Source: Spirochaetales bacterium (GTDB taxonomy: Bacteria > Spirochaetota > Spirochaetia > Sphaerochaetales > Sphaerochaetaceae). From it: 36,547 bases of DNA. Numbering within the stretch: position 1 is the stretch's first letter; the number at the start of each line of letters is the position of its first letter. The stretch is taken from NCBI GenBank assembly GCA_012728215.1, contig JAAYFO010000070.1, positions 1-36,547 on the forward strand. The letters run 5' to 3'. Positions 7,047 to 34,320 of this stretch are shown piece after piece. Under the pieces are notes generated by a model, which searched no databases, was not told where the DNA came from, and was given only the letters and a program-made list of their open reading frames with translations. A program made the position numbers and the translations under genes.

Positions 7047-7448
7047 ATGGAGATGAAGAACAGGATATACCTTCTGGACGGGGGAAGGAAGTTCATGGGA
7101 GTCGGGGTTTTCTGGCTTCTGAAGGAAATTGGGAAATGTGGTTCACTTAGACAGGCTGCGTTGAGTCTGGATATCTCGTATTCGAAGGCTTTCAGAATGA
7201 TCTTTGATCTTGAGAATGCCTTGGGAATGAAGGTCGTCGATCGTCATCGGGGAGGAATGTCCAGGGATGGTGCGGTTTTGACTGAGTTCGGAGAAAAGTT
7301 TATATTACTATATGAGGACTTCCAGAACAGATCTTCGGACTTGGTGACGGAGGTTTTCATGGAATTTTCCAAAGGCCTTGATAATCTCAAGAGCATCTGC
7401 GGGGTGAAACTGGACAGGGAGGTTTCGGATGAAGGAAAAAAAGTTTGA
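7047..7448 (+). CDS. ModE-type winged-helix regulator without a molybdate-binding domain
   Basis: This 133-aa protein consists almost entirely of a LysR-like winged helix of the ModE N-terminal type. GSLRQAALSLDISYSKAFRM, beginning near residue 35, is the helix-turn-helix. It is followed by the family's GG...GA.LTEFGEKF segment near residues 70-87 and a helical tail. ModE proteins of Escherichia coli carry two C-terminal molybdate-binding (Mop/TOBE) domains; none is present here. The ATG at 7047 is preferred because GAGGAGG (7033-7039) sits seven bases upstream; a TTG at 7041 is the other option. It lies between ligA and pfk and overlaps the pfk start by 20 bases. A molybdenum-hydroxylase-like operon lies about 2.2 kb away, making it a plausible but unproven target. 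Confidence 0.8.
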   Translation: MEMKNRIYLLDGGRKFMGVGVFWLLKEIGKCGSLRQAALSLDISYSKAFRMIFDLENALGMKVVDRHRGGMSRDGAVLTEFGEKFILLYEDFQNRSSDLVTEVFMEFSKGLDNLKSICGVKLDREVSDEGKKV

Positions 7449-8757
7449 CTTCACAATCAGAACACTTGGCAAAGCCAAGATTGTATCTCCAATTAAGATG
7501 AGCATGGAAGCAGGGGATGGCATTGCGGATTATGTCACAGAAGACGACCGGATTCTTTTTGATATAGATACTCTCACAACTGAGGCCGGACATGTCATTC
7601 CTGTCTGCGAGGATACCGTTGAGCTTGCAGGACCAAGGGAATACATCTATTTCAACCCTTCTCATGTTCATGCGGCAATATGCACTTGTGGCGGAATCTG
7701 CCCTGGCCTGAACAACGTCATTCGTGCTGTAGTCCGATGCCTGTGGTACAGATATGGTGTAAGAAGAATAAGTGGAATACGTTATGGTTATCAGGGACTT
7801 ATGCCTGACAGTCCATATCCATTCATGGATCTCAATCCCGATGTGGTTGATGATATTCAGGAACGCGGAGGAACAATCCTTGGCAGTGCCAGAGGAGCGG
7901 GTGACCGTGTTGTGGATATCGTGGATTCGCTGGAAAGGATGAATGTCAACATTCTGTTCGCCATCGGTGGAGACGGGACGCTCAGGGGTGCCAATGATAT
8001 CGGAGAAGAGATTCTTCGAAGAGGCCTTAAGATCAGTGTCATCGGAATTCCCAAGACAATTGACAACGATCTCTCGTTCATTCAGAAGTCATTCGGTTTT
8101 GATACTGCTGTTTCAATGGCTGTTCCAAGTGTAAGGGGTGCTCATACTGAAGCCAGAAACTCAATCAATGGAATAGGGCTTGTCAAAGTCATGGGACGTT
8201 CTTCCGGGTTCATTGCCGCAAGTACCTCATTGGCACAGAGCGATGTCAATTTCTGTCTGATTCCGGAGAATCCCTTTGATCTTTATGGAGACAATGGACT
8301 TCTGATACACTTGAAGAAACGCTTGATTGATCGGAATCATGCGGTGATTCTGGTTGCTGAGGGGGCTGGACAGGATCTGCTTCCGAAGACTGGAGAGAAG
8401 GATGCTTCAGGAAATGAGAAGTTGAGTGACATTGGAATATTCCTAAAGGAAGAAATCACAAAGTATTTCAAGCAGGAAGGAATTCCAAGCAGTGTGAAAT
8501 ACATCGACCCAAGTTATCTGATCAGGAGTGCCCCGGCAAATTCATATGACTCTATCTACTGTGCACGACTTGGTGCCCATGCCGTACATGCTGCCATGGC
8601 GGGCAAGACACAGGCCCTGATAAGCATGATTAATGACAGATTCGTAGAAATACCGATAAGTCTCGCTGTATCCAAGAGAAATATGGTGAATACCGAGGGA
8701 GCGCTTTGGCGTGATGTTCTGGAGAATACCAGGCAGCCTTCTTCGATGAAGAATTGA
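7429..8757 (+). CDS. pfk: 6-phosphofructokinase, long spirochaete-type
   Basis: This 442-aa protein is a phosphofructokinase, phosphorylating fructose 6-phosphate in glycolysis. Motifs are CGGICPGLNNVIR (87-99), GYQGL (120-124), GGDGT (180-184) and PKTIDND (208-214). An N-terminal extension of about 80 residues precedes the catalytic core. In this family glycine in GGDG usually marks ATP use and lysine in PKTIDND usually marks the pyrophosphate type; the mixed G/K signature occurs in the clade that includes trypanosome and some spirochaete enzymes, where ATP is the expected donor. So the donor is probably ATP but is not certain. The ATG at 7429 has AGGGAGG just upstream and lies inside the regulator gene. 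A terminator-like hairpin follows 53 bases after the stop. Confidence 0.9.
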   Translation: MKEKKFDFTIRTLGKAKIVSPIKMSMEAGDGIADYVTEDDRILFDIDTLTTEAGHVIPVCEDTVELAGPREYIYFNPSHVHAAICTCGGICPGLNNVIRAVVRCLWYRYGVRRISGIRYGYQGLMPDSPYPFMDLNPDVVDDIQERGGTILGSARGAGDRVVDIVDSLERMNVNILFAIGGDGTLRGANDIGEEILRRGLKISVIGIPKTIDNDLSFIQKSFGFDTAVSMAVPSVRGAHTEARNSINGIGLVKVMGRSSGFIAASTSLAQSDVNFCLIPENPFDLYGDNGLLIHLKKRLIDRNHAVILVAEGAGQDLLPKTGEKDASGNEKLSDIGIFLKEEITKYFKQEGIPSSVKYIDPSYLIRSAPANSYDSIYCARLGAHAVHAAMAGKTQALISMINDRFVEIPISLAVSKRNMVNTEGALWRDVLENTRQPSSMKN

Positions 8758-8810
8758 CAGTTGGAGAAGAGCCCATTGGCTGAGATTCCTTCTGATAGTT
8801 GAATGAAATG

Positions 8811-8845
8811 TCCAGTTTTCTTATTAATTTACTATTAAAACTGGA
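8811..8845 (+). terminator. Probable terminator after pfk
   Basis: TCCAGTTTT (8811-8819) pairs perfectly with AAAACTGGA (8837-8845) across a 17-base AT-rich loop, followed by TAATTTTGTC. The stem is good but the loop is large and the T run is interrupted. Confidence 0.5.
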
Positions 8846-9005
8846 TAATTTTGTCATATTTATGTATTGCTTGATTACGTTCTTTTTTTTTGCTTTTTTT
8901 GCTGTTTTTAAATTTGATATTAACCGTTTAGTTCAAGCCAGGTGATAGGTTTGAAAATATTCGTTGTTTTGTGAACCGGTTTTCTGCGATTGTTATCGAT
9001 ACCTA
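8846..9005. other. AT-rich gap between pfk terminator and small-RNA promoter
   Basis: No gene was found here. It holds T-rich tracts (8880-8910), a hairpin formed by TTCAAGCC (8932-8939) and GGTTTGAA (8948-8955) with one G-U pair, the palindrome AACCGGTT (8974-8981), and CGAT-N4-ATCG (8987-8998) just before the -35 of the next promoter. The last two could be operator sites for the downstream RNA, but nothing proves this. Confidence 0.4.
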
Positions 9006-9034
9006 TTGACGTTTTTTTATGGAAGTAGTATTTT
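9006..9034 (+). promoter_or_regulatory. Promoter of an orphan small RNA
   Basis: TTGACG (9006-9011) and TATTTT (9029-9034) have exactly 17 bases between them. The predicted start is 9041. No protein-coding gene in this direction follows; the next gene, recG, converges from the other strand. Confidence 0.6.
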
Positions 9035-9040
9035 ATGAGC

Positions 9041-9119
9041 ATAGAGAACGACATTTTTTTGTTTCTCTACCTCCTTTTGTTCCCCTAGGTTTGACCTCCT
9101 TTTCTCCTAGGGGTTTTTT
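9041..9119 (+). ncRNA. Candidate small RNA with two anti-Shine-Dalgarno motifs
   Basis: This predicted transcript of about 79 nt is bounded by a sigma-70-like promoter and a strong intrinsic terminator. Hairpin 1 is TAGAGAA (9042-9048) with TTCTCTA (9063-9069). Next comes a single-stranded linker with ACCTCCTTTT (CCTCC at 9070-9074). The terminator hairpin is CCCCTAGG/CCTAGGGG, whose 16-base loop repeats ACCTCCTTTT (CCTCC at 9095-9099). ACCTCCTTT is also the usual 3' end of bacterial 16S rRNA, so both segments would pair with GGAGG ribosome-binding sites. Small RNAs with C-rich loops that mask ribosome-binding sites are known in other bacteria (for example RsaE). An overlapping 17-codon ORF starts at 9035, but the predicted transcript begins after its ATG. 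Confidence 0.55.
9082..9119 (+). terminator. Intrinsic terminator of the small RNA
   Basis: An eight-base-pair GC-rich stem, CCCCTAGG (9082-9089) with CCTAGGGG (9106-9113), is followed by TTTTTT (9114-9119). The T run is on the plus-strand side only, so it terminates the plus-strand RNA and not recG. Confidence 0.85.
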
Positions 9120-9163
9120 ATGTTCTGATTCCACTACGGATTCCAGACGATGATTCTGAGAAG

Positions 9164-11227
9164 TCAATTCTGCATTGAGAAACCTTGGTGAGAACTGTCA
9201 AGTGACAGAACATTCTTGATTATTGCATGATCCGCCAGAAGAAGGCCGGGATCTGCTTTCAAAATCTTTTCCACTTCGCTGCGGGCTGTTTCTATCATTG
9301 CCAGATCCTTGGTCAGATCTCCATATCTAAGATTCAGGAAGCCTGACTGTTTCTTTCCTGCGATTTCACCTGGCCCCCTGATAATCAGGTCCTTTTCGGC
9401 AATTTCAAATCCGTCATTGGTATTCTTCATAGTTTTGAGTCGTAGCTTCGCATCTTCAGACAGGTCATCTGAAAATACGAGGAAACACCAGCTCTGAAGT
9501 GAACTTCGGCCAACTCGTCCTCGTAGTTGGTGAAGGGCTGCCAATCCAAACAACTCGGCATGTTCTATCACCATGCAAGTCGCATCGGCGACATCAATCC
9601 CTACCTCGACGACTGAAGTCGAGACCAGATAGCTTATTTTTCTATTTGCGAAATCCCTGAGAATATTCACCTTGGTCTCTTCATCAAGCCTGCTGTGAAT
9701 GAGAGCCGATGTCACTCCCGGGTAGATTCCTTTCAAATACTCATGCATGGTTGTGACATCCCTGATGGCATTGTCCGGATTTTCATCTATCCGAGGATAA
9801 ACGAAATAAGCCTGATGACCACGATTGAATTCGACCTGAATGGCCTGATACATATCGTTCCTGCGCTTGTCTGAGACAAGATGAGTGATGACAGGTATTC
9901 GTCCAGGTGGCATTGTCTTGATTGTCGAGACATTCAGATCTCCAAATACAGTAAGAGCTAGAGTACGAGGAATTGGGGTTGCGGTCATGAGAAGCACATC
10001 AGGAGTATGCCCCTTGGACATCAGAGCAAGACGCTGCTGGACTCCAAAACGGTGCTGTTCGTCAATAATGACGAATCTCAGATCCGAGAATATCACAGAC
10101 TTGGAAAACAGTGCATGAGTTCCAATCAGTATGTCGATTTCACCTGCCGCCAATGCAGACAGCAGTGGCTCTCTCTGCTTTGTGCCGACACTCCCGGTAA
10201 GGAATGAGACACGGATTCCTAACGGTTCCAAAAGTCGTGCGGCGTTCTCGGCATGCTGTCTGGCAAGAAGTTCGGTAGGTGCCATGAAAGCAACTTGTCC
10301 GCCATCATCTATCGCATGCAGCGCTGAAATCCAAGCTACCAATGTCTTTCCACTGCCTACGTCGCCTTGAAGCAATCTGTTCATTGAACTTGGCGAAGCC
10401 ATGTCCTGACGTATTTCATCAAGAGCCTTCTTCTGGTCTGAAGTCAGCTTAAAAGGAAGGCTTGCCACAAATCGCTTTTCCACTTCGCTTTCTTCAAGCT
10501 TGCCTCTTCTTCCAGGAGAGGAACTGTCTCGCCTGGTGGCAATCTGCTGATAGAAGAACTCGCTGAAGGCAAGAGTTCTTCTAGCCTTGGAAACCATTTC
10601 CAGTGAATCAGGGTTGTGTATCTGTCTGATTGCAGAATCGAAGCTCAGCAGATGATATTTCTCCATCAGAAACTGAGGAATCTCATCATCGAAATGGCGT
10701 ACTCTTGCCAGAATGTTCTTCACATCACGTCTGATGGCTTTCTGACCAAGGGTGCCGGAAAGAGGATAGATAGGAAGAATTCTTCCAAACTGTTCCGGTG
10801 GTTTCGATTCGCAAAATGGAATCACTTCGAACTGGCTGGATTGGAGTTCCCCAAAACTCTGTCCGATGGTAGCGTAAAGATAGAACTTTCGTCCTGGTTT
10901 GAGCACGTCCTTGAGGAAGTTTCTGTTGAAGCAAAGAAGTGAAAGGTTCCTTTCATAGTCTGGAGTGCTTACATCCGTCACAATGACCTTTAGAATGTGC
11001 TTTGCTCCAAAGAAAGATGAACCCTTGACTGCAATGAAAGTATTTACCAGGCCAGTCTCATCCTGATGACCTATTGGAATGATCTTTGATCTGTTTTCAT
11101 ATCCTCTGGGTGAAAGAGCCAGCAGATCTGAAAAAGAGTATACACCAAGACTGGAGTAGGATCTTATTGCCGCTTTTCCTACACCGGTGAGATTCGAGAC
11201 AGGTTCGCTCAGTTCTCTGATTAACAC
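9164..11227 (-). CDS. recG: ATP-dependent DNA helicase RecG
   Basis: This 687-aa protein is the RecG branch-migration helicase that rewinds stalled forks and processes recombination intermediates. An N-terminal wedge/OB domain (about 1-200) precedes the helicase core. Walker A is GDVGSGKT (288-295), the DExx box is DEQH (389-392), and TATPIPRTLALTVFGDL follows as motif III. QLRGRVGRS is motif VI, near residues 562-570. Its length is normal. The GTG start at 11227 is supported by a GAGGAG five bases upstream. It is the third gene after dnaE and the YggT-like gene, separated from the latter by 13 bases, and so part of that operon. No terminator is visible after its stop. Confidence 0.96.
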   Translation of the reverse strand: MLIRELSEPVSNLTGVGKAAIRSYSSLGVYSFSDLLALSPRGYENRSKIIPIGHQDETGLVNTFIAVKGSSFFGAKHILKVIVTDVSTPDYERNLSLLCFNRNFLKDVLKPGRKFYLYATIGQSFGELQSSQFEVIPFCESKPPEQFGRILPIYPLSGTLGQKAIRRDVKNILARVRHFDDEIPQFLMEKYHLLSFDSAIRQIHNPDSLEMVSKARRTLAFSEFFYQQIATRRDSSSPGRRGKLEESEVEKRFVASLPFKLTSDQKKALDEIRQDMASPSSMNRLLQGDVGSGKTLVAWISALHAIDDGGQVAFMAPTELLARQHAENAARLLEPLGIRVSFLTGSVGTKQREPLLSALAAGEIDILIGTHALFSKSVIFSDLRFVIIDEQHRFGVQQRLALMSKGHTPDVLLMTATPIPRTLALTVFGDLNVSTIKTMPPGRIPVITHLVSDKRRNDMYQAIQVEFNRGHQAYFVYPRIDENPDNAIRDVTTMHEYLKGIYPGVTSALIHSRLDEETKVNILRDFANRKISYLVSTSVVEVGIDVADATCMVIEHAELFGLAALHQLRGRVGRSSLQSWCFLVFSDDLSEDAKLRLKTMKNTNDGFEIAEKDLIIRGPGEIAGKKQSGFLNLRYGDLTKDLAMIETARSEVEKILKADPGLLLADHAIIKNVLSLDSSHQGFSMQN

Positions 11228-16059: not shown

Positions 16060-17298
16060 TCAGGTATTGGTTATGACAAAGAAGTACATGGTGGTGTAGT
16101 AGTTTCCGGCAGTCATCTTGGAAGTGTCCTGATTTGTCTGTAGAAAAGTCTTTATGTAGATTGGAAGAGAAGAGAGGGACCAGTTGCACGAATAGAGGAC
16201 TTGGCTTGTGGTTCCTGATACTACAGTGGCCGAGAGCGGAATAGGAATCTTGTAGATATATTGGTTGCCTCCGCTGTTTCCTAGCTTTGAGAACTGTGCA
16301 CCCTGATCTGAAGAATAGACACCATACCACATTGTATTTACAATGGACCGGGTTGCATATTCCGAGTTTTCCAGAATGAATCTGTATGGAGACGGAGATT
16401 CGTTGGACGGAGCCGTGTAGTTGGACACGGGTGAAAGATAGATGGAATACTTGTTCGTATAGGCGGTACTTTGACTAGGTGGAGTGGCGTTGTAGGCCTG
16501 GGTGACGAATTCGTTTCCCTCGAACATCAGATTGGCAACAGGAGAATAAGTCTGAGTGTCGGAAAGGTCGACGTTGAAGGTGTTTTCGGCATTCTGAATA
16601 TAGAAGGAGAACGATGAGCTTTGCTCGAACTCCGCCCCGTAGTATCCCTTTATCAGGATGTCCTCGGTCTTTCCATCGTAATCTGCTGTGAGGTTTACGT
16701 TGTAATACCCGCCTTCCAGGCTGCCTTCAGCGGGAATGGTACTTGAATCCAGGACAATGACGACCTGATAATGGTAGTAAGTCTTGCAATAGAAGAATTC
16801 TTTCAATATCCATCCATCAAATGCCCAGTAACTGCCCCATGTTGATTTCTTCATGGTGAAGTCAAGGCTGTCAGTGGATTTACTGGACGAAGCAAGAACC
16901 TGTGTCGGCAATGTCGCTGAATATGATGATTTTTTATTAGGCGTTTCCCACTTTATCTCATATACAGCGATGGAAAAATCTCTTGATGAAGTCAGGTTGC
17001 TTTCATGGATAAATGCAAGGTCGTCTGCAAATATGGAAACGGAGACTGCATTTTCCTTTGTGTTTATCATGCGAAACAGCTCGACCTGATTGTCTTGTGG
17101 AGTCCCTTGGAAGTCCGCCTGAATATCCGAAGCGGAGCAGACTTGCACTGAGGACATGTCGTAGGCGTAGTTTTCGTTGTTTACTGTAGTCTGGCTCAGA
17201 AGCCAGGTGCTCTTTTCGGATATCTCGACATTTCCTCCAGCAAGAAGAAGGAAGCAGGCCAGGTTGGAGATAATTAAGAATAAGGTGATTTTCTTCAT
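16060..17298 (-). CDS. Secreted beta-rich protein, left operon gene 4
   Basis: This 412-aa protein was not recognised. It starts with a signal peptide (residues 1-20, MKKITLFLIISNLACFLLLA), followed by about 390 residues rich in Ser, Thr, Tyr and Asn with alternating hydrophobic residues, as in beta-sandwich proteins. It ends in TAGNYYTTMYFFVITNT, the motif shared by most proteins of both operons. Start 17298 has GGAGA upstream; the preceding stop is one base away (TGACATG). It corresponds to gene 4 of the right operon: similar length (412 vs 423), and GYYGAEFEQSSSFSFYIQNA aligns with GLYESTAFQNSYAAFVVVPNA, each followed by a DL/DI-D segment. Probably the largest subunit of a secreted assembly; function unknown. 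Confidence 0.7.
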   Translation of the reverse strand: MKKITLFLIISNLACFLLLAGGNVEISEKSTWLLSQTTVNNENYAYDMSSVQVCSASDIQADFQGTPQDNQVELFRMINTKENAVSVSIFADDLAFIHESNLTSSRDFSIAVYEIKWETPNKKSSYSATLPTQVLASSSKSTDSLDFTMKKSTWGSYWAFDGWILKEFFYCKTYYHYQVVIVLDSSTIPAEGSLEGGYYNVNLTADYDGKTEDILIKGYYGAEFEQSSSFSFYIQNAENTFNVDLSDTQTYSPVANLMFEGNEFVTQAYNATPPSQSTAYTNKYSIYLSPVSNYTAPSNESPSPYRFILENSEYATRSIVNTMWYGVYSSDQGAQFSKLGNSGGNQYIYKIPIPLSATVVSGTTSQVLYSCNWSLSSLPIYIKTFLQTNQDTSKMTAGNYYTTMYFFVITNT

Positions 17299-17299
17299 G

Positions 17300-17848
17300 T
17301 CAGTTCTCCGTGGTGAATACAAACACTATCGTCGATGAATATGTTCCGGCGGTCAGATCCGATATTTCATTGGCACTTGCATTCATGCTTACATAAAATG
17401 CCTTGTTTGTAATTGCAAATGGAGGGACTGAACCCAGATCGGAAGAAGTTATGGTTATAAAGCCTGAATCTGCCGTGCTGTGGTATGCTGTCTTGAACTG
17501 ACCGGAATCCGAGTAGAACAGATCCAGTCGGTAGTCAACGTAACTTGAGGTATCGGTGGAATGGACAAGATAATCATGATAGACCTTCAAAGAGAAGGAA
17601 TTGTTGCAGAACAGGCTGTAGTTTCCTGCATGTATTCCTCTGACGTTTGCTGTGTCAGTGTTCTTCTTTGCTTCATTGCTTTCAACATCGAAGGGAAGCA
17701 GGTCTGTATTCAATGTCACTCTCATAGATGCGTTGGTGCCGATGTATCCGACGACGAGCCAGGAATAGGGTGAAGATGCGGTGCTCGTTGCAGGCAATGA
17801 TGAAACCGCCATGAGAATTACAAATAAAATCAAAATTGTCTTCTTCAT
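17300..17848 (-). CDS. Secreted beta-rich protein, left operon gene 3
   Basis: This 182-aa protein of unknown function has a signal peptide (MKKTILILFVILMAVSSLPATSTA) and a predicted beta-sandwich body. It aligns with gene 3 of the right operon: LVVGYIG versus LVVTGLVG after the signal peptide, DYRLDLFY versus DYELAVEY in the middle, and AGTYSSTIVFVF versus DGEYRSTVTFNF at the end. The start at 17848 is chosen because the signal peptide begins there; an upstream in-frame ATG would put about 19 polar residues ahead of it. It lies 10 bases after gene 2 with a weak ribosome-binding site. The two internal cysteines are absent except one near residue 81, so disulfides are unlikely to be a feature. 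Confidence 0.7.
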   Translation of the reverse strand: MKKTILILFVILMAVSSLPATSTASSPYSWLVVGYIGTNASMRVTLNTDLLPFDVESNEAKKNTDTANVRGIHAGNYSLFCNNSFSLKVYHDYLVHSTDTSSYVDYRLDLFYSDSGQFKTAYHSTADSGFITITSSDLGSVPPFAITNKAFYVSMNASANEISDLTAGTYSSTIVFVFTTEN

Positions 17849-17858
17849 AATGACCTGC

Positions 17859-18653
17859 CTAAGTTGCCTGGATGTGCACAGAAATAGTCGATTCATAATA
17901 CCCATTTGGCACTGCTGTCTGTGGACTGCTGCTATATACTATGTTGCCATTGCTTTCCTTGATTCCAAGAATCACATATGCACTTCCTGTCCTGTTCCAA
18001 TGATTGCATATGACAGGCTTCTGGCTCGGGTTTGAAATCAGAGCCCCGTTATTCGAAACTGTAGAGTTTGTCGACATGTCATATTTGATTTCAATTGTCT
18101 GATTTGTCTCAGCGGGAGTGAAGTCTGACTCAAGTGTCCAACTGAGAGTGTCGAATTGCTGTGAAGTTGAACCAATTGAGCTTACATGATCCGAATACGC
18201 ATATGTATAGTTGTTTATCTTGAAGCTCGGAGTGCTGAATGGGGTGCCGTCATATGAAATCGTATGGTTGCCGATCTTCGTCTCTTCGCAGACGAACTGA
18301 AGAGAATACGGGATTGCGTAAGCGCTGTCTTTCAGAACCAGTGGTCCGATAGTGAAGCTCAGATTCACCTGGCTGAACCTGTTTCCTGAAGCCACCCATG
18401 TGAACGCCTTGATTGTATTGGCACTTGCATTTCTTGCAGATGCCGGAAGTTCGGCATTGATTGTGTCTGAAAGATATATTCTGGAGTTGTTGAGCATTCT
18501 GATCTCATAAGCTTCCAAAGGCATTGCGCCGCTTTGACCACCTTGATATTTTACAGCTGTCAGAATCACTTCGGAACTTAATGTCTCGGAAGTGGCTGGC
18601 ATGGAAATCAAGAGAAGAATGAAAAACATTACAAGGAATAAGCGGACCTTCAT
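17859..18653 (-). CDS. Secreted beta-rich protein, left operon gene 2
   Basis: This 264-aa protein of unknown function begins with a signal peptide (MKVRLFLVMFFILLLISMPATS). Its body matches gene 2 of the right operon: F-x-W-x-x-x-x-x-F, then SFTIGPL here and SFTIGLL there, and later GALIS versus GSILIS after a beta-rich stretch. It ends in NGYYESTISVHIQAT, a form of the shared C-terminal motif. The ATG at 18653 overlaps the gene 1 stop as ATGA, with GGAGG ten bases upstream; an in-frame start 27 codons earlier would lie deep in gene 1 and place an Arg-rich stretch before the signal peptide, so it is rejected. Confidence 0.7.
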   Translation of the reverse strand: MKVRLFLVMFFILLLISMPATSETLSSEVILTAVKYQGGQSGAMPLEAYEIRMLNNSRIYLSDTINAELPASARNASANTIKAFTWVASGNRFSQVNLSFTIGPLVLKDSAYAIPYSLQFVCEETKIGNHTISYDGTPFSTPSFKINNYTYAYSDHVSSIGSTSQQFDTLSWTLESDFTPAETNQTIEIKYDMSTNSTVSNNGALISNPSQKPVICNHWNRTGSAYVILGIKESNGNIVYSSSPQTAVPNGYYESTISVHIQAT

Positions 18654-19198
18654 TGTACGATTTCCTCCACTGTGACCTGTCCTGTGTACTCTCCGGCGAT
18701 TGACTCTCCTACTGGAACACAGTACATGGAGCATATCTGTCTTGTTGTCTCAGGCTGTCCAAAGTTTGCATAAAGACCCAAACCATCGAATTGCACATAT
18801 CCTGCACCGAATTGGTTTGCAGTGGGGGTCACTGGTACTTCGATTCCGGATGATGACACTATCTTCATTCTATATGTCATGCAGTTGCTCGATGTATAGG
18901 TGGCTGGATTGGCTTCCTTGCATAGGTTGGTCCAACTTATTTTGTAGGAGATGCTTTCCAATGATTCATTGAAGACTATTTTCAGATAGCCGACAAGTGC
19001 TTCTGCGGCTTCTGAGTCTAGAGTCACCGTTGTTATGGTGTTTCCTTCTGAATCAGTGAAGACCGGACTGTGATATGAAGTTACGTTCACGGAATGAAAC
19101 ATTCCGTAAGTTCCCTGCGCCTGTGCGGCAACGGCGCTGGCGGAAGCTGTCATGGTACAGACGAGGATAAGTATGAGAATTGTTTTCTTCTGTACCAT
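18650..19198 (-). CDS. Secreted beta-rich protein, left operon gene 1
   Basis: This 182-aa protein of unknown function is the first gene of the left operon. It has a signal peptide with a good cleavage region after SAVAAQA (about residues 20-26). The body is beta-rich and has four cysteines, in two pairs near residues 93/106 and 155/160, which could form disulfides in the periplasm. The end is AGEYTGQVTVEEIVQ, matching the shared motif. It corresponds in position and length to right gene 1 (182 vs 176 aa), though sequence agreement is limited to the ISYKIS / ISFKIS region and general pattern. The start at 19198 has GGGAGG seven bases upstream. Confidence 0.7.
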   Translation of the reverse strand: MVQKKTILILILVCTMTASASAVAAQAQGTYGMFHSVNVTSYHSPVFTDSEGNTITTVTLDSEAAEALVGYLKIVFNESLESISYKISWTNLCKEANPATYTSSNCMTYRMKIVSSSGIEVPVTPTANQFGAGYVQFDGLGLYANFGQPETTRQICSMYCVPVGESIAGEYTGQVTVEEIVQ

Positions 19199-19227
19199 TG
19201 TTTTTCCTCCCTTCCATATTTCTTCAG

Positions 19228-19238
19228 TTGTGTCACAA
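19228..19238. promoter_or_regulatory. TTGTG-T-CACAA palindrome at the left operon start point
   Basis: TTGTGTCACAA forms an inverted repeat with one central base and covers the predicted left operon start (about 19235). Its core GTGTCACA recurs at 19791-19798 inside the spacer of the right operon promoter. A shared operator is plausible. Confidence 0.4.
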
Positions 19239-19241
19239 GTA

Positions 19242-19271
19242 ATTATAACCCCACAAGCAACTATGTTTCAA
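19242..19271 (-). promoter_or_regulatory. Promoter of the left secreted-protein operon
   Basis: On the minus strand TTGAAA (19271-19266) and a consensus TATAAT (19247-19242) are 18 bases apart. The predicted start is near 19235, giving a leader of about 37 nt before the gene 1 ATG. Confidence 0.6.
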
Positions 19272-19779
19272 GTTTTTTTTTGAATTTTCATTAACTATTT
19301 TTGTATTGTCATATTGAAGAAAGAGCTATGAAATCGCTAATTGCTTTTATTGTAATTAAAATCGCTACATATTTTTGCGTTTATGACAAATGAAAAAAAA
19401 CATATGCACTGAAGAAAAGGCGCTTGTGCTTTTCGGTTTTTTCAAATTATCATCATCTTTTTATTGCCTTCGCCCCGTTTCCCTCCACTTTTTTAATTAT
19501 GTTGATAAACTTGTGGCAAAACTTATCTTTTTGTTGAAAGGTATTTGGGGTTTGTTGTTGATATTTGAATTGGTTGATTGTCTTTTTCTGTTTTAATTTG
19601 ACATAACATAGCAATAAAAAATGAATAAATACAATTTTATCTTTGATTTTATGACAGTGATAGTTTGAATTCTTCAAAATATGTCAACAGTTTGACGAAT
19701 TAGTTTAATAATTTTAAATCTTTGAAAACAAAGAATTAAGAAAATTATTAAATCTTTTACTTTTTAAATATAAAAACTA

Positions 19780-19809
19780 TTGACTAATGGGTGTCACAGA
19801 ATATATATT
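19780..19809 (+). promoter_or_regulatory. Promoter of the right secreted-protein operon
   Basis: TTGACT (19780-19785) is followed by TATATA (19802-19807, spacing 16) or TATATT (19804-19809, spacing 18). GTGTCACA (19791-19798) lies within the spacer. The leader contains two copies of AGCTAG (19822 and 19829). Confidence 0.55.
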
Positions 19810-19845
19810 ACATATGACATAAGCTAGAAGCTAGGGTGGTCAGAG

Positions 19846-20376
19846 ATGAAGAGAATGTTTTTGATTGTGATGTTTTTATTCATCGGATTGACATGCGTTT
19901 TTTCTACTTTCAATATTCAGTTCACCTCTTCCGACAACCAATATACCACCATCCAGTTTACAGATTTCACCGCAGGGACAAGTGTGCTGTCCACTGATAC
20001 TATAAGAGATCTTGATACTTATCAGGGGGTGTTCTGGGTAAGAATTTCTACAACTTTGACGTCTTCAATCAGTTTCAAGATATCGGCAACTCCTTTCATT
20101 GGAGTAAACGATGCAAACTCCAAGCTTGCTTACTCTCTTAAGCTTAGCAGGGATTATCTGCCTTTGGTCGGCGATGCCTTTCAGACGATTTCTGTTGGAA
20201 CTGGTTCAAGTCTTTATGAATCATCAAGCATAGCAGTAGATCCAAACGACTATAATACCAACGGAACTCCCTTCATCTGTGTCTGCGGATATGCGAATCT
20301 CCCAAGCACTTCTCTTCAGGGAGCGACTACCGGCACTCATGTTTCCACCGTTTCGCTTCATTTGGTTGTGAATTGA
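19846..20376 (+). CDS. Secreted beta-rich protein, right operon gene 1
   Basis: This 176-aa protein of unknown function opens the right operon. Its signal peptide is MKRMFLIVMFLFIGLTCVFS. The rest is Ser/Thr-rich with alternating hydrophobic residues, and it ends in TGTHVSTVSLHLVVN, a variant of the shared C-terminal motif with His in place of Tyr. It has two cysteines close together (VCVCG-like, near residues 146-148). It corresponds to left gene 1 in position, length and an ISFKIS segment. An AGGGTGG stretch lies six bases before the ATG. Confidence 0.7.
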   Translation: MKRMFLIVMFLFIGLTCVFSTFNIQFTSSDNQYTTIQFTDFTAGTSVLSTDTIRDLDTYQGVFWVRISTTLTSSISFKISATPFIGVNDANSKLAYSLKLSRDYLPLVGDAFQTISVGTGSSLYESSSIAVDPNDYNTNGTPFICVCGYANLPSTSLQGATTGTHVSTVSLHLVVN

Positions 20377-20389
20377 CAAGGAGAAGATA

Positions 20390-21103
20390 ATGAAACATTT
20401 CATATTGATGATGATCATCATTCTTACCGTTCCTCTTCTTCCAGTCGTCTCGACAGTGACTACTGATGCTGCGCTCACAGTATCCGGGTACAAGAATGCA
20501 AGTGATACACCCACTTCAAGCGGTTCATACTCATTGCAGCTTCAGTCGTATCTGAATACAGCGATAGCGAACGAATCGGTCATAGTGCTGGATCCATCCA
20601 AGCATGCTACGGCAAGCTCGAGTGACAGCAAGTTCTTTTCCTGGACGATAGGCAGGACTTTTGACTCATCGGCATATTTTGACTTTCCTTCTTATAGCAA
20701 GAACACAACCATTGGAACATTGTCATTCACAATAGGCTTGCTTAAGGCTTCGTACAACGGATCGTACTATAATCCGGCCTATGATCTGACATTTGCCATA
20801 TCTAGTCAGGCCTCTTCTGTTGTCAAGGATTATTACTTGACAAGATACAAGTACACGCCTTCCCTGGTGAGCACCGGAGTTGTCAATCAATCTGTCCAGG
20901 CTGGAAAGAATCAGTCGTTCAGCGGTTCGGTGTTTTCCTATGATTTCAACATCACAAGATCAAGGAAGAACAATGCCACAGTGAACTATGACCTTGAAAT
21001 CGGCGGAAACGGATCGATCCTGATTTCATCTCTGCACAGCGATGTCCAGAATCTTCAACTTACATACACTGCCCCGGTGGTTGTGGAGTTTACCGTGCAA
21101 TAG
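20390..21103 (+). CDS. Secreted beta-rich protein, right operon gene 2
   Basis: This 237-aa protein of unknown function has a signal peptide (MKHFILMMIIILTVPLLPVVS) and a beta-rich body with no cysteines. It aligns with left gene 2 around F-S-W-T-I-G, then SFTIGLL and GSILIS. Its C-terminus is TAPVVVEFTVQ, in which the Gly-x-Tyr part of the shared motif is missing, so it is the most divergent end among the eight. AAGGAG lies six bases before the ATG, and the gap after gene 1 is 13 bases, so the genes are co-transcribed. Confidence 0.7.
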   Translation: MKHFILMMIIILTVPLLPVVSTVTTDAALTVSGYKNASDTPTSSGSYSLQLQSYLNTAIANESVIVLDPSKHATASSSDSKFFSWTIGRTFDSSAYFDFPSYSKNTTIGTLSFTIGLLKASYNGSYYNPAYDLTFAISSQASSVVKDYYLTRYKYTPSLVSTGVVNQSVQAGKNQSFSGSVFSYDFNITRSRKNNATVNYDLEIGGNGSILISSLHSDVQNLQLTYTAPVVVEFTVQ

Positions 21104-21114
21104 GAGGTGAGGAA

Positions 21115-21684
21115 ATGAAGATGCGATTGTTTTTTTTGATATCCGCCTTGATTCTCTTGATCATCATGTTCCCGTTGTCGGCATTGAGCAATTCTTCCAA
21201 CGACCTCGTAGTCACCGGTTTGGTAGGCAAGCTTCATTCTGTTTCAGTTTCCCAATTCGCCGATTCCATGCCGATAGATTTGGATTATTCGGTAAACAAC
21301 AACCTTCTCATCACGCCAACAGCCACTCCTGTGTCCGAACCGGGCCTTAAGATAGCCACCTGGTCGATGACGACGAACAGCCTGCCGGCAACCATGGTGA
21401 TAAGTCATGACCGCATCGTGAATACATTGAACAACACGATATCTTATGATTATGAACTTGCTGTGGAGTATCAGCTGGATTCCTCTGCAGCGAATGTGGT
21501 GCAGATTGCAATTGCCGGTAATCAGATCGAAATCCAGTTGAATGATGCGGGAGCTGGTCTGTATTCCGTTCAGGATGCCGGAATGTTCTTTCGTCTGTGC
21601 AAGGTAAATGGGATCATTGGCAGCAATCAGATTCAAGATGGTGAATATCGGTCCACCGTCACGTTTAATTTTATAGGCACATGA
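21115..21684 (+). CDS. Secreted beta-rich protein, right operon gene 3
   Basis: This 189-aa protein of unknown function has a signal peptide (about residues 1-24) and is the clear partner of left gene 3. LVVTGLVG matches LVVGYIG, ISYDYELAVEYQ matches SYVDYRLDLFYS, and DGEYRSTVTFNF matches AGTYSSTIVFVF. It is preceded by a strong AGGAGG eight bases before the ATG. It stops one base before gene 4 begins (TGATATG), the same tight junction seen between left genes 3 and 4, which suggests that the coupling predates the duplication. Confidence 0.72.
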   Translation: MKMRLFFLISALILLIIMFPLSALSNSSNDLVVTGLVGKLHSVSVSQFADSMPIDLDYSVNNNLLITPTATPVSEPGLKIATWSMTTNSLPATMVISHDRIVNTLNNTISYDYELAVEYQLDSSAANVVQIAIAGNQIEIQLNDAGAGLYSVQDAGMFFRLCKVNGIIGSNQIQDGEYRSTVTFNFIGT

Positions 21685-21685
21685 T

Positions 21686-22957
21686 ATGAAGAAAGGTCTT
21701 TTTGCTTTACTTTTAGTGATGATAGTCACAAGTGCGTTGTCTGCTGTTACGGTTTTTCAGACTGCAGAACAGGGAAACCAATGGGACCTGGCTTCGTCAT
21801 ACCCTGCTCCTTCTGTGGGAAGTTCATGGAATAACGGGTATGGAATCAACAATTTCATAGGGCTTGTCGGTGTTCGAAATCAGACACATCCAATCAAGTT
21901 CACAGTTTCTTCCAATTGCAAATTCGTCAGTTCTCAGGATCAGACTAAGTTCAGAGCTGTATCGCTGTATTTTGTTCCAAGATTTTCCACATCAGCGACT
22001 CTTGGCGGATCTCATACTTCATTCCTGAAGGAAATTTCCTATGATACTGCAAATCATACAGTGACTGTTTCTCAAAATCAGATGTCCAATCTGCCTTCAT
22101 TGACCGCTTCGGGATCGATTGAGCTTTACACCCCCATCACTGACTCCGCTCATTTTTATGACTATGGGAATGGCACCAGTGTGATTGGATCATATTGGCT
22201 TGATACGGTGTTGGTCATGCCGACTCTAAATGATGAAGAAAAGAAGCATATGGTGAAATCCTCTGATTACATTTTGACTGTCAATGTGAATTACGAATGT
22301 CTTGAGTCCGGCTGTCAGAATCCAGATCATTTTGGAGGCATTGTTCTTCTGTACAACGGATTGTATGAATCCACCGCTTTTCAGAATTCATATGCGGCTT
22401 TTGTAGTTGTCCCCAACGCCGATGCCAATTCGTTGGATATCGACGACATGGTCAACAACCAGACCCAAGTGCTGGTGGGGGAGTATCTTTATTCTTCCAA
22501 CTACCTGTACAATGATTCTGCATCTGTGATCAATGGAACCAAGATATTCGCATCGTCGTCCTCGTCGTATATTGATAATGCCGCTTCGACTTTCCGTCTG
22601 AAGAAGGAAGGAATAGTCAGTTCCGATACTGCATACAACAGCGTTCCATTGATTGTAACGACAAGAGATGATTCGGCGGTGGGAAGTGTCAAGACCGCGA
22701 CATACGATGGTACCGATTATTATTCTTCCAACGGGGACAGAAGGGTGAATCAGGGAGGGACGGGAACGTACACGACGCTGGCTTTCCCAAATGCCATTGC
22801 CGGAAATAGCGGTACCTTCATCGCTCAGACTGCAAAAATCTACGTATCTGTTCCTGCAACTGATCCTCTTACAGGGAACAATACGCTTTACTCAGCTACA
22901 GGCCTGCTGGCCGGTTCATATAAGGAAACGATCTACTTTCATATTGTTGTTGAATGA
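21686..22957 (+). CDS. Secreted beta-rich protein, right operon gene 4
   Basis: This 423-aa protein of unknown function has a short signal peptide (MKKGLFALLLVMIVTSALS). The body appears to hold two beta-rich halves, meeting near residues 225-250, and one cysteine pair within YECLESGCQN. It ends in LLAGSYKETIYFHIVVE, a textbook form of the shared motif. It is the partner of left gene 4 by order, length and the GLYESTAFQNSY-AAF region followed by LDIDDM. No ribosome-binding site separate from gene 3 is visible, so it is probably translated by re-initiation. No clear terminator follows. Confidence 0.72.
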   Translation: MKKGLFALLLVMIVTSALSAVTVFQTAEQGNQWDLASSYPAPSVGSSWNNGYGINNFIGLVGVRNQTHPIKFTVSSNCKFVSSQDQTKFRAVSLYFVPRFSTSATLGGSHTSFLKEISYDTANHTVTVSQNQMSNLPSLTASGSIELYTPITDSAHFYDYGNGTSVIGSYWLDTVLVMPTLNDEEKKHMVKSSDYILTVNVNYECLESGCQNPDHFGGIVLLYNGLYESTAFQNSYAAFVVVPNADANSLDIDDMVNNQTQVLVGEYLYSSNYLYNDSASVINGTKIFASSSSSYIDNAASTFRLKKEGIVSSDTAYNSVPLIVTTRDDSAVGSVKTATYDGTDYYSSNGDRRVNQGGTGTYTTLAFPNAIAGNSGTFIAQTAKIYVSVPATDPLTGNNTLYSATGLLAGSYKETIYFHIVVE

Positions 22958-32620: not shown

Positions 32621-33277
32621 GTGAAGTATGTATGTACTGTATGTGGATTTATATACGACGAAGCCAAAGGCGATCCTGATTCTGGAATAAAGGCTGGAAC
32701 CAAATGGACAGAGTTGCCAGATGACTGGAAGTGTCCGGTGTGTGGAGCATCGAAGGCTGAGTTCGAAGCTGAAATGCCAAAGGAAGCTTCAAGGCCTGTA
32801 CTGGCAGAGAGTGTATCTGAATCAGAACCAGCAGATGATTTCAAGGAATTGTCTATGTTGGAGAAGAGCGTTCTGTGTTCCAATCTTGCCAAAGGCTGTG
32901 AGAAGCAGTATAGGGCGGAGGAAGCAGAGCTGTTTCGTCAGCTGGCTGATTATTTTTGTAATGCGGAACCTGTTGTATCAATATCTCAGGACGATGGATT
33001 TGAAAAGATCCTTGCTCTGATAAATCAGAATCTGGAAGAAAACATCCCGAAGGCAAAGGATATTGCAGTTGAGCAAGGAGACAGAGGTGCCCTCAGGGCT
33101 TTGACCTGGTGTGGCAAGGCTACGACGATTCTCAAATCTCTGCTTAGCAGACGTGATGCTGCTGAAGAGTCAGGAATCTGGGTATGCACTATCTGTGGAT
33201 TTGTGTTTGTGGGAGAGGTTCCTCCTGCGCTTTGTCCAGTCTGCAAGGTTCCTAGTTGGAAGATGGAGGCGGTATGA
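32621..33277 (+). CDS. Double-rubredoxin protein with a degenerate rubrerythrin-like core
   Basis: This 218-aa protein has a full rubredoxin domain at the N-terminus (C5, C8, C38, C41). A helical middle domain (about 75-180) follows, and a short rubrerythrin-style rubredoxin domain closes it (C189, C192, C205, C208). The middle domain follows rubrerythrin's helix pattern, but the final helix, VEKAHE in the adjacent rubrerythrin, reads WCGKATT here, so the diiron ligands appear to be lost. It would then act as an electron carrier with two FeS4 sites, presumably passing electrons to the fused rubrerythrin encoded next to it. The GTG start is backed by AGGAGG six bases upstream. The stop overlaps the next start (ATGA). 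Confidence 0.75.
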
Positions 33278-34320
33278 ACAAGAAGTATGCAGTAAGGAAT
33301 ATCAGGCTTTGTACAAAGGACTGCCTTTGTCTGTATGTGTGTCCTACCGGAGCCACCGATACTGAAAACAGCATTATCGACAAGGACAAGTGCATTGGTT
33401 GCGGTGTCTGTGCCGAATCATGTCCTTCCAAGGCCATCAGCATGATGCCAGTGGAGCTTCCTCCACAGCAGAAGCATTCAGAACAGATGTCAAGTGCGAT
33501 GAACAAAGTGCTGTCAGCGAAGCTCGAATCAGAAAGGACTGCTTTGGCTATGAGTGGCAAGACAGCGGAAGCGGTTCGCAGATCGTGCAGAATCATGGCT
33601 GAGGATCTGATTCGTGAAGCAGGATTCATGCTTCCCCAGAGCAGCAATGCCCATGCTTTTTTGAAGGAGCTTGCAAGCAGTCCACATGGTAAGGATTTTC
33701 CAGTTGATGCTGTGAGAACACTTTTGGAAAAGCTGGAACAAAATGAAAACGAAATCAAATCAGATGAGGAGAAAAATAAAATGGCAAACAAATATGCAGG
33801 AACAAAGACAGAGAAGAATCTGCAGGATGCATTTGCCGGCGAGAGCCAGGCAAGAAACAAGTACACTTACTTTGCGAAGATAGCAGGTGAGGAAGGCTAC
33901 GATCAGATTGCGGAGATCTTTTTGAAGACAGCAAGGAACGAGCAGGAACATGCCCGTGTCTGGTTTCAGGAATTAGGCAATCTCGGCACCACATCAGATA
34001 ATCTGAAGGCTGCTGCAGATGGCGAGAACTATGAATGGACTGATATGTATGATCGTTTCGCAAAGGATGCTGAAGAAGAGGGCTTTGCCGGACTGGCTGC
34101 CAGATTCAGACGCGTGGCTGCAGTGGAGAAGGCCCATGAGGAACGCTATCGTGCTCTCCTGAACAATGTGGACATGCAGAAGGTGTTCGAGAAGAGCGAG
34201 GAAGTAATGTGGGAGTGCAGGATTTGTGGACATCTGGTAATTGGAAAGAAAGCTCCGATGGCCTGTCCGATCTGTGGCTACAAGCAAAGTTACTTCGAGG
34301 TCAGAAAGGAAAACTACTAG
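33274..34320 (+). CDS. Ferredoxin-rubrerythrin fusion protein
   Basis: This 348-aa ORF joins two proteins. Residues 1-60 form a two-cluster [4Fe-4S] ferredoxin: C40, C43, C46 and C50P in standard spacing, and C13, C17, C19 and C23P in a nonstandard C-x3-C-x-C-x3-C. A helical segment (about 70-165) follows. From residue 170 the sequence is a complete rubrerythrin: [29 protein letters not shown] and VEKAHEER carry the diiron ligands, and a C-terminal rubredoxin with CRICG and CPICG ends it. Rubrerythrin reduces hydrogen peroxide in anaerobes. An internal ATG at 33781, nine bases after GAGGAG (33766-33771), begins exactly where free-standing rubrerythrins begin, so a separate 179-aa product is likely as well. 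The start overlaps the previous gene as ATGA. Confidence 0.82.
33766..33771 (+). promoter_or_regulatory. Internal ribosome-binding site for the rubrerythrin part
   Basis: GAGGAG precedes an in-frame ATG at 33781 by nine bases. The protein from that ATG begins [13 protein letters not shown], as separate rubrerythrins do. Confidence 0.5.

Follow-up and report, generated by a model that had tools for sequence, protein, structure and literature searches.

A predicted small-RNA gene of spirochaetes that carries the anti-Shine–Dalgarno sequence twice

Results

A predicted small-RNA gene downstream of pfk

The window analyzed here is a 36,547-nt stretch of DNA from a Spirochaetales bacterium (contig JAAYFO010000070.1), in which 406 bases without a long open reading frame (ORF) separate pfk from a convergent recG ORF; no ORF of 100 aa lies in 8758–9163. 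An earlier note had placed in this gap an RNA of about 79 nt with no gene of its own, framed by a promoter with a 17-base spacer and an eight-base-pair terminator, and a letter-by-letter check bears these coordinates out. The features are as follows.

7429..8757, + strand: pfk (PF00365, Pfam), upstream neighbor of the small RNA
9006..9011, + strand: −35 hexamer TTGACG (letter-by-letter check; kept in congener L004 with an altered spacer)
9029..9034, + strand: −10 hexamer TATTTT, 17-nt spacer from the −35 hexamer
9041..9119, + strand: predicted small RNA, about 79 nt (fold and family-wide conservation)
9043..9068, + strand: 5' hairpin (fold), the sequence of which differs between genera
9069..9078, + strand: anti-Shine–Dalgarno (anti-SD) site 1, ACCTCCTTTT, predicted single-stranded linker
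9082..9113, + strand: terminator stem-loop, 8 bp with a 16-nt loop (fold and letter check)
9082–9089 and 9106–9113, + strand: terminator stem arms CCCCTAGG and CCTAGGGG
9090–9105, + strand: terminator loop TTTGACCTCCTTTTCT
9094..9103, + strand: anti-SD site 2, ACCTCCTTTT, inside the terminator loop
9114..9119, + strand: terminator T-run, T6
9164–11227, convergent with pfk: recG ORF (named by reading)

Transcription is predicted to start near 9041. The predicted fold of the 80-nt RNA has an energy of −22.2 kcal/mol (z −4.04), which none of 200 shuffles equaled, and in it site 1 is mostly unpaired and site 2 lies in the terminator loop, in keeping with the earlier note, which put one copy of the ten-base segment in a linker and the other in the terminator loop. 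The 10-mer has two copies in the 1.76-Mb genome assembly (212 contigs), both at 9041–9119, and none on the other strand, so that the genome holds no perfect complement of it. The repeat by itself is not striking, since a 10-mer repeat within 60 nt arose in 274 of 3000 dinucleotide shuffles of the intergenic stretch; two CCTCC arose in 60 of 3000 (2%). A second, weaker terminator-like hairpin lies at 8932–8955, between pfk and the small-RNA promoter, and is perhaps the pfk terminator. Elsewhere in the window, by reading, positions 16060–22957 encode exported-looking proteins on both strands, unlike the adjoining housekeeping genes, and positions 32621–34320 hold overlapping ORFs with rubredoxin-like and ferredoxin/rubrerythrin-like ends.

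The repeated segment was said to equal the region of 16S rRNA that pairs with the Shine–Dalgarno (SD) sequence, and this proved correct. The 16S 3' end, recovered from 12 of the 17 genomes, was ACCTCCTT every time, in a search whose pattern itself demanded ACCTCCTT with up to 3 mismatches. Because the 16S rRNA of the relatives ends in this way, the RNA carries the ribosome's mRNA-reading sequence twice.

Conservation across the class

The exact tandem pattern occurs in 110 of the 139 family genomes, representing 15 of 22 genera, compared with 0 for a reversed control pattern, which indicates that the tandem motif is more than chance. Named records that share the anatomy include Sphaerochaeta, Pleomorphochaeta and Ornithospirochaeta. 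Phylum-wide, 12 of 296 genomes have the exact pattern, 11 from the same family and 1 from another family of the class. The profile R1, built from 43 members, matched 122 of the 139 family genomes (69 of the 75 good ones), usually in a single copy. Across the class it matched 165 of 394 genomes, of which 80 lie outside the family; some class genomes have two or three matches, and chance may account for the weakest ones (E near 1e-4). Nearly all of the 40 class regions that were fetched show, on inspection, a hairpin with a CTCC loop. Among these more distant loci are L219, which we take to be from Sediminispirochaeta smaragdinae, L240, presumably from Spirochaeta thermophila, and L215–L218, assumed to be from Treponema-like genomes.

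By profile search, several family genomes, including congener G001 and several small genomes, do not have the gene. Ten loci with a close pfk homologue were found in RNA-less genomes; three end at or near the contig end, and the seven that are readable beyond pfk show no gene remnant by eye, the whole gene being absent rather than stripped of its motif. In the congener, other sequence follows pfk (locus L258) and the small-RNA gene is absent. Rfam gave no gathering-level match for the window, and no description of this RNA was found in the literature searched, which consisted mostly of open-licence rather than subscription papers. The locus belongs to a real, class-wide family of probable small RNAs that is absent from Rfam, and its promoter, its terminator and its conservation across the class support well the idea of a small RNA with duplicated anti-SD segments.

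What is kept and what varies

Members were compared as 100 non-identical cores (L198, L254, L196 and L204 were left out). For alignment, 64 spirochaete loci were picked by eye, with L045 left out of the MAFFT alignment A1; on it, RNAalifold called just 3 pairs, with the stem register shifted, and for this reason the model R1 is nearly a sequence profile, and the stems were compared by single-sequence folds. A hairpin surrounds site 2 in 98 of the 100 members, L250 and L242 being without a terminator loop there. The folds yielded 67 distinct terminator stem sequences. When arms were swapped between members, 66% of positions could still pair, compared with 100% for a member's own arms, a value that holds by construction because predicted pairs were taken. 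On these replaced stems the loop is constant, with CTCC in 98 of 98 and CCTCC in 90 of 98.

The earlier note had named the loss of both CCTCC segments from relatives that keep the hairpins as the case that would speak against its proposal; at least one CTCC site is present in each of the 100 members, a result that the motif-rich profile favors. Because the collection of members relied on the motif or on a motif-dominated profile, the invariance of the motif is partly built in. The exceptions are these: L250 has lost site 2 and kept site 1; L237, L253 and L242 have site 2 only; L189 and L193–L195 have UCUCC at site 2; and in L240 and L241 the sequence immediately before the profile match carries two hairpins in a row, both with a CCTCCTTT loop.

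Over 99 members, site 2 is predicted to be unpaired with a mean probability of 0.97 and site 1 with 0.70, site 1 falling below half in 17 of the 99 folds. The 32 nt upstream of site 1 have a moderate folding tendency (mean z −1.53, 100 members) and a variable sequence. A promoter with at least 10 of 12 matches was found in 18 of 96 members versus 1% of shuffles, and one with 9 of 12 in 36 of 96 versus 14%; its distance is near-constant within genera. Taken together, the stem, loop and promoter comparisons show that what is retained is the promoter, both anti-SD sites and a terminator as such, and that most other letters are free. In Sphaerochaeta-type members such as L063, L126 and L157, and unlike in most other genera, the predicted folds pair site 1 for the most part with the 5' region, an arrangement that could act as a switch.

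Genomic neighbors

The small-RNA gene often follows pfk: of the 93 loci with at least 700 nt of sequence, 51 have pfk upstream in the same orientation (median gap 274 nt). In other families it faces pgi. Of 91 loci, 24 have pgi no more than 900 nt downstream, 22 of them in convergent orientation, and Pfam confirmed pgi in L220. recG is downstream in just 2 of 91 loci, and in two Treponema-like loci, L215 and L217, the neighbor is an OmpA-family gene.

SD usage, Hfq and candidate targets

A detectable SD (−6 kcal/mol or better) precedes 78 of 130 sampled genes of this genome (about 60%) versus 24 of 116 decoys, and an anti-SD RNA would therefore have hundreds of possible partners. The suggestion that one RNA sorts leadered from leaderless messages finds no support in this analysis. 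Hfq (PF17209) was found in 0 of 61 genomes of relatives, and five control genomes were positive.

Could the RNA nevertheless act on particular messages? The earlier note had advised target prediction restricted to start regions. We collected start regions with a perfect 10-nt complement in the RNA-carrying family genomes, removed loci of RNA-less genomes, matches antisense to the small RNA, near-identical proteins and ORFs shorter than 60 aa, and obtained at least 74 proteins, mainly from two genera. Among the 74 listed, 12 are SBP_bac_1 and 11 BPD_transp_1, compared with 3 and 8 among 120 strong-SD genes drawn at random from those genomes (23 of 74 versus 11 of 120, p 1.3e-4, in a test made after the first matches were seen). 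With relatives removed, the count was 19 of 65 (p 5.7e-4), and among 81 strong-SD genes of the relative G076 there were 4 and 3. The excess over random genes stood, but that over neighboring strong-SD genes, operon mates included, did not reach significance (8 and 12 of 96; p 0.09), and permeases are likewise common in 12 RNA-less genomes, where BPD_transp_1 makes up 5 of 23 perfect-match genes. SBP_bac_1 is absent among the 25 of 37 families listed for these 23 proteins, which allows it at most one match; the p of 0.03 from the RNA-less contrast assumed zero. Given the neighbor comparison and the permeases of RNA-less genomes, the strong SDs of transporter genes may explain the excess, and sugar ABC-transporter messages are candidate targets in the sense of a lead, not a result.

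Other approaches were given up. Ranking by plain duplex energy was dropped because the best controls were as low as the best start regions (medians for the own sample, −20.95 kcal/mol for start regions versus −18.2 for coding controls). pfk ranked second as a target in the own sample, but the pfk starts of other genomes share no extended complementarity. Avoidance of the perfect complement, with 0 matches in this genome outside the RNA versus 12 control matches, supports no claim, as a similar shortfall is seen by eye in RNA-less genomes.

Discussion

A trans-acting RNA that probably masks SD sites

We think it probable that 9006–9119 is a stand-alone gene of an old spirochaete family that encodes a trans-acting, Hfq-free RNA masking SD sites. 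Transcription from a sigma-70-type promoter would yield an RNA of some 80 nt, terminated by the gene's own intrinsic terminator, in which the 16S-tail sequence ACCUCCUU(UU) is displayed twice, in a flexible linker and in the terminator loop. Either site, the two being equivalent seeds, may base-pair with the GGAGG region of a message and so deny the 30S subunit access; occlusion of the SD in this way would be the simplest mechanism. Masking of SD sites is probably what the RNA does, and the masking of GGAGG sites that had been proposed earlier is a plausible inference from its sequence. As the search found no gene for Hfq, the RNA would probably depend for pairing on its two exposed C-rich seeds, or else on a different chaperone. 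That it so often sits between pfk and pgi points to carbon flow, and the RNA perhaps restrains sugar-transporter messages. The anatomy of the gene, its conservation, the exchange of stems around a constant loop, the neighbors and the lack of Hfq are observed; transcription, pairing, repression and targets are deduced from them. Several observations weigh against the reading: this genome has no perfect complement of the 10-mer, pfk starts lack extended complementarity, site 1 is largely paired in some of the folds, and several family genomes lack the gene.

Might the element be nothing more than the pfk terminator, its loop conserved by chance? Its frequent position downstream of pfk on the same strand and its perfect intrinsic terminator would fit this, but site 1 lies outside the terminator and the RNA's own promoter is conserved. 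Moreover, the gene is present where pfk is on the other strand (L066, L243) or absent (L050, L117), and 40 of the 93 loci have no pfk within 2.5 kb upstream, some of them with shorter sequence than that. We regard this explanation as quite improbable. Plain coincidence, an AT-rich intergenic region with C-rich patches, deserves almost no credence: although two CCTCC do turn up in 2% of shuffles, the class-wide recurrence with replacement of the stems argues against it, and the contrast with the reversed control excludes it. It is also very improbable that the signal belongs to the minus strand, with AAAAGGAGGT as the ribosome-binding site of small minus-strand genes. That strand does present a strong SD, followed by ATG in some genera; however, a start codon comes 3–13 nt on in just 46 of 95 members, the median ORF has 12.5 codons, no peptide is shared among those listed, and the T-run and the promoter have plus-strand polarity.

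A different alternative retains the RNA and dispenses with target choice: as a mimic of the 16S tail, it might lower SD-led translation generally or occupy a factor of the 16S 3' end. The identity of the motif with the 16S tail is consistent with such a global brake, and the scarcity of conserved sequence outside the motif leaves little room for target choice; start regions also pair slightly better than coding controls, by the medians given above. On the other hand, most genomes have one copy of the gene, and having pfk and pgi as neighbors hints at a defined role, so we consider a global brake unlikely.

Returning to the masking of SD sites as the preferred reading, a mostly single-copy, class-wide RNA that shows a plain pairing site twice offers a test case for target finding without Hfq and for whether a bare 16S-tail mimic can be selective, and its position beside pfk and pgi suggests which physiological condition to vary first. 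The literature searched seems to contain little on trans-acting small RNAs from free-living and gut spirochaetes. As a speculation, and one that we ourselves hold to be doubtful, a class-wide, Hfq-free 16S-tail mimic between pfk and pgi might couple the glycolytic state to the translation of SD-led messages, above all those of sugar ABC transporters, and might have arisen convergently with, and independently of, the alphaproteobacterial multi-anti-SD RNAs.

Comparison with known RNAs

As in trans-acting anti-SD small RNAs generally, the gene has its own promoter and intrinsic terminator and a predicted exposed sequence complementary to the SD; it differs from the Hfq-dependent trans-acting RNAs in that PF17209 was found in none of the 61 genomes. 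RsaE/RoxS of Firmicutes has a C-rich single-stranded seed that is thought to mask SD sites. The parallel drawn with it in the earlier note holds for the working principle but not for kinship, as the structures differ and there is no Rfam match. SgrS, a small RNA near carbon metabolism, restrains sugar uptake; a possible logic alone is in common with it, with no sequence, structural or Hfq kinship apparent. The anti-hemB RNA model (RF02837) did not match the window RNA itself; its match in L240, at the tandem pair of CCTCC hairpins, scored 25 bits (E 0.086), below the curated gathering cut-off of 49.5. A Ysr141 match in L001 at 2666–2863 lies outside the small RNA and far below the cut-off of that model.

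The CcsR1–4 RNAs count among the alpha-r14 or 'cuckoo' RNAs of Alphaproteobacteria. SmelA075, SmelA099 and NfeR1, of the same group, have hypervariable stems topped by a constant anti-SD loop, more than one anti-SD site per RNA, and predicted targets that are mostly transport proteins (PMC3927594, PMC7143759). The spirochaete RNA likewise has a constant anti-SD loop on variable stems (67 stems, CTCC in 98 of 98). However, an alpha-r14 RNA has three or four hairpins, all with CCUCCUCCC in the loop, whereas in the spirochaete RNA ACCUCCUUUU occupies a linker and the terminator loop; where at least three hairpins define that group, the window RNA has a single terminator hairpin plus the linker site, and L240 and L241 have two hairpins. 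The phylum is another one, and there is no gathering-level match to a curated family model. AbcR1 and AbcR2 have two CU-rich anti-SD motifs in unpaired regions (PMC7143759), and so does the spirochaete RNA, but they differ from it in their three stem-loops, their tandem gene pair and their occurrence in Rhizobiales, and no Rfam match links them to it. The best reading is that the spirochaete RNA is built like the alpha-r14/'cuckoo' and AbcR RNAs and is not a member of them.
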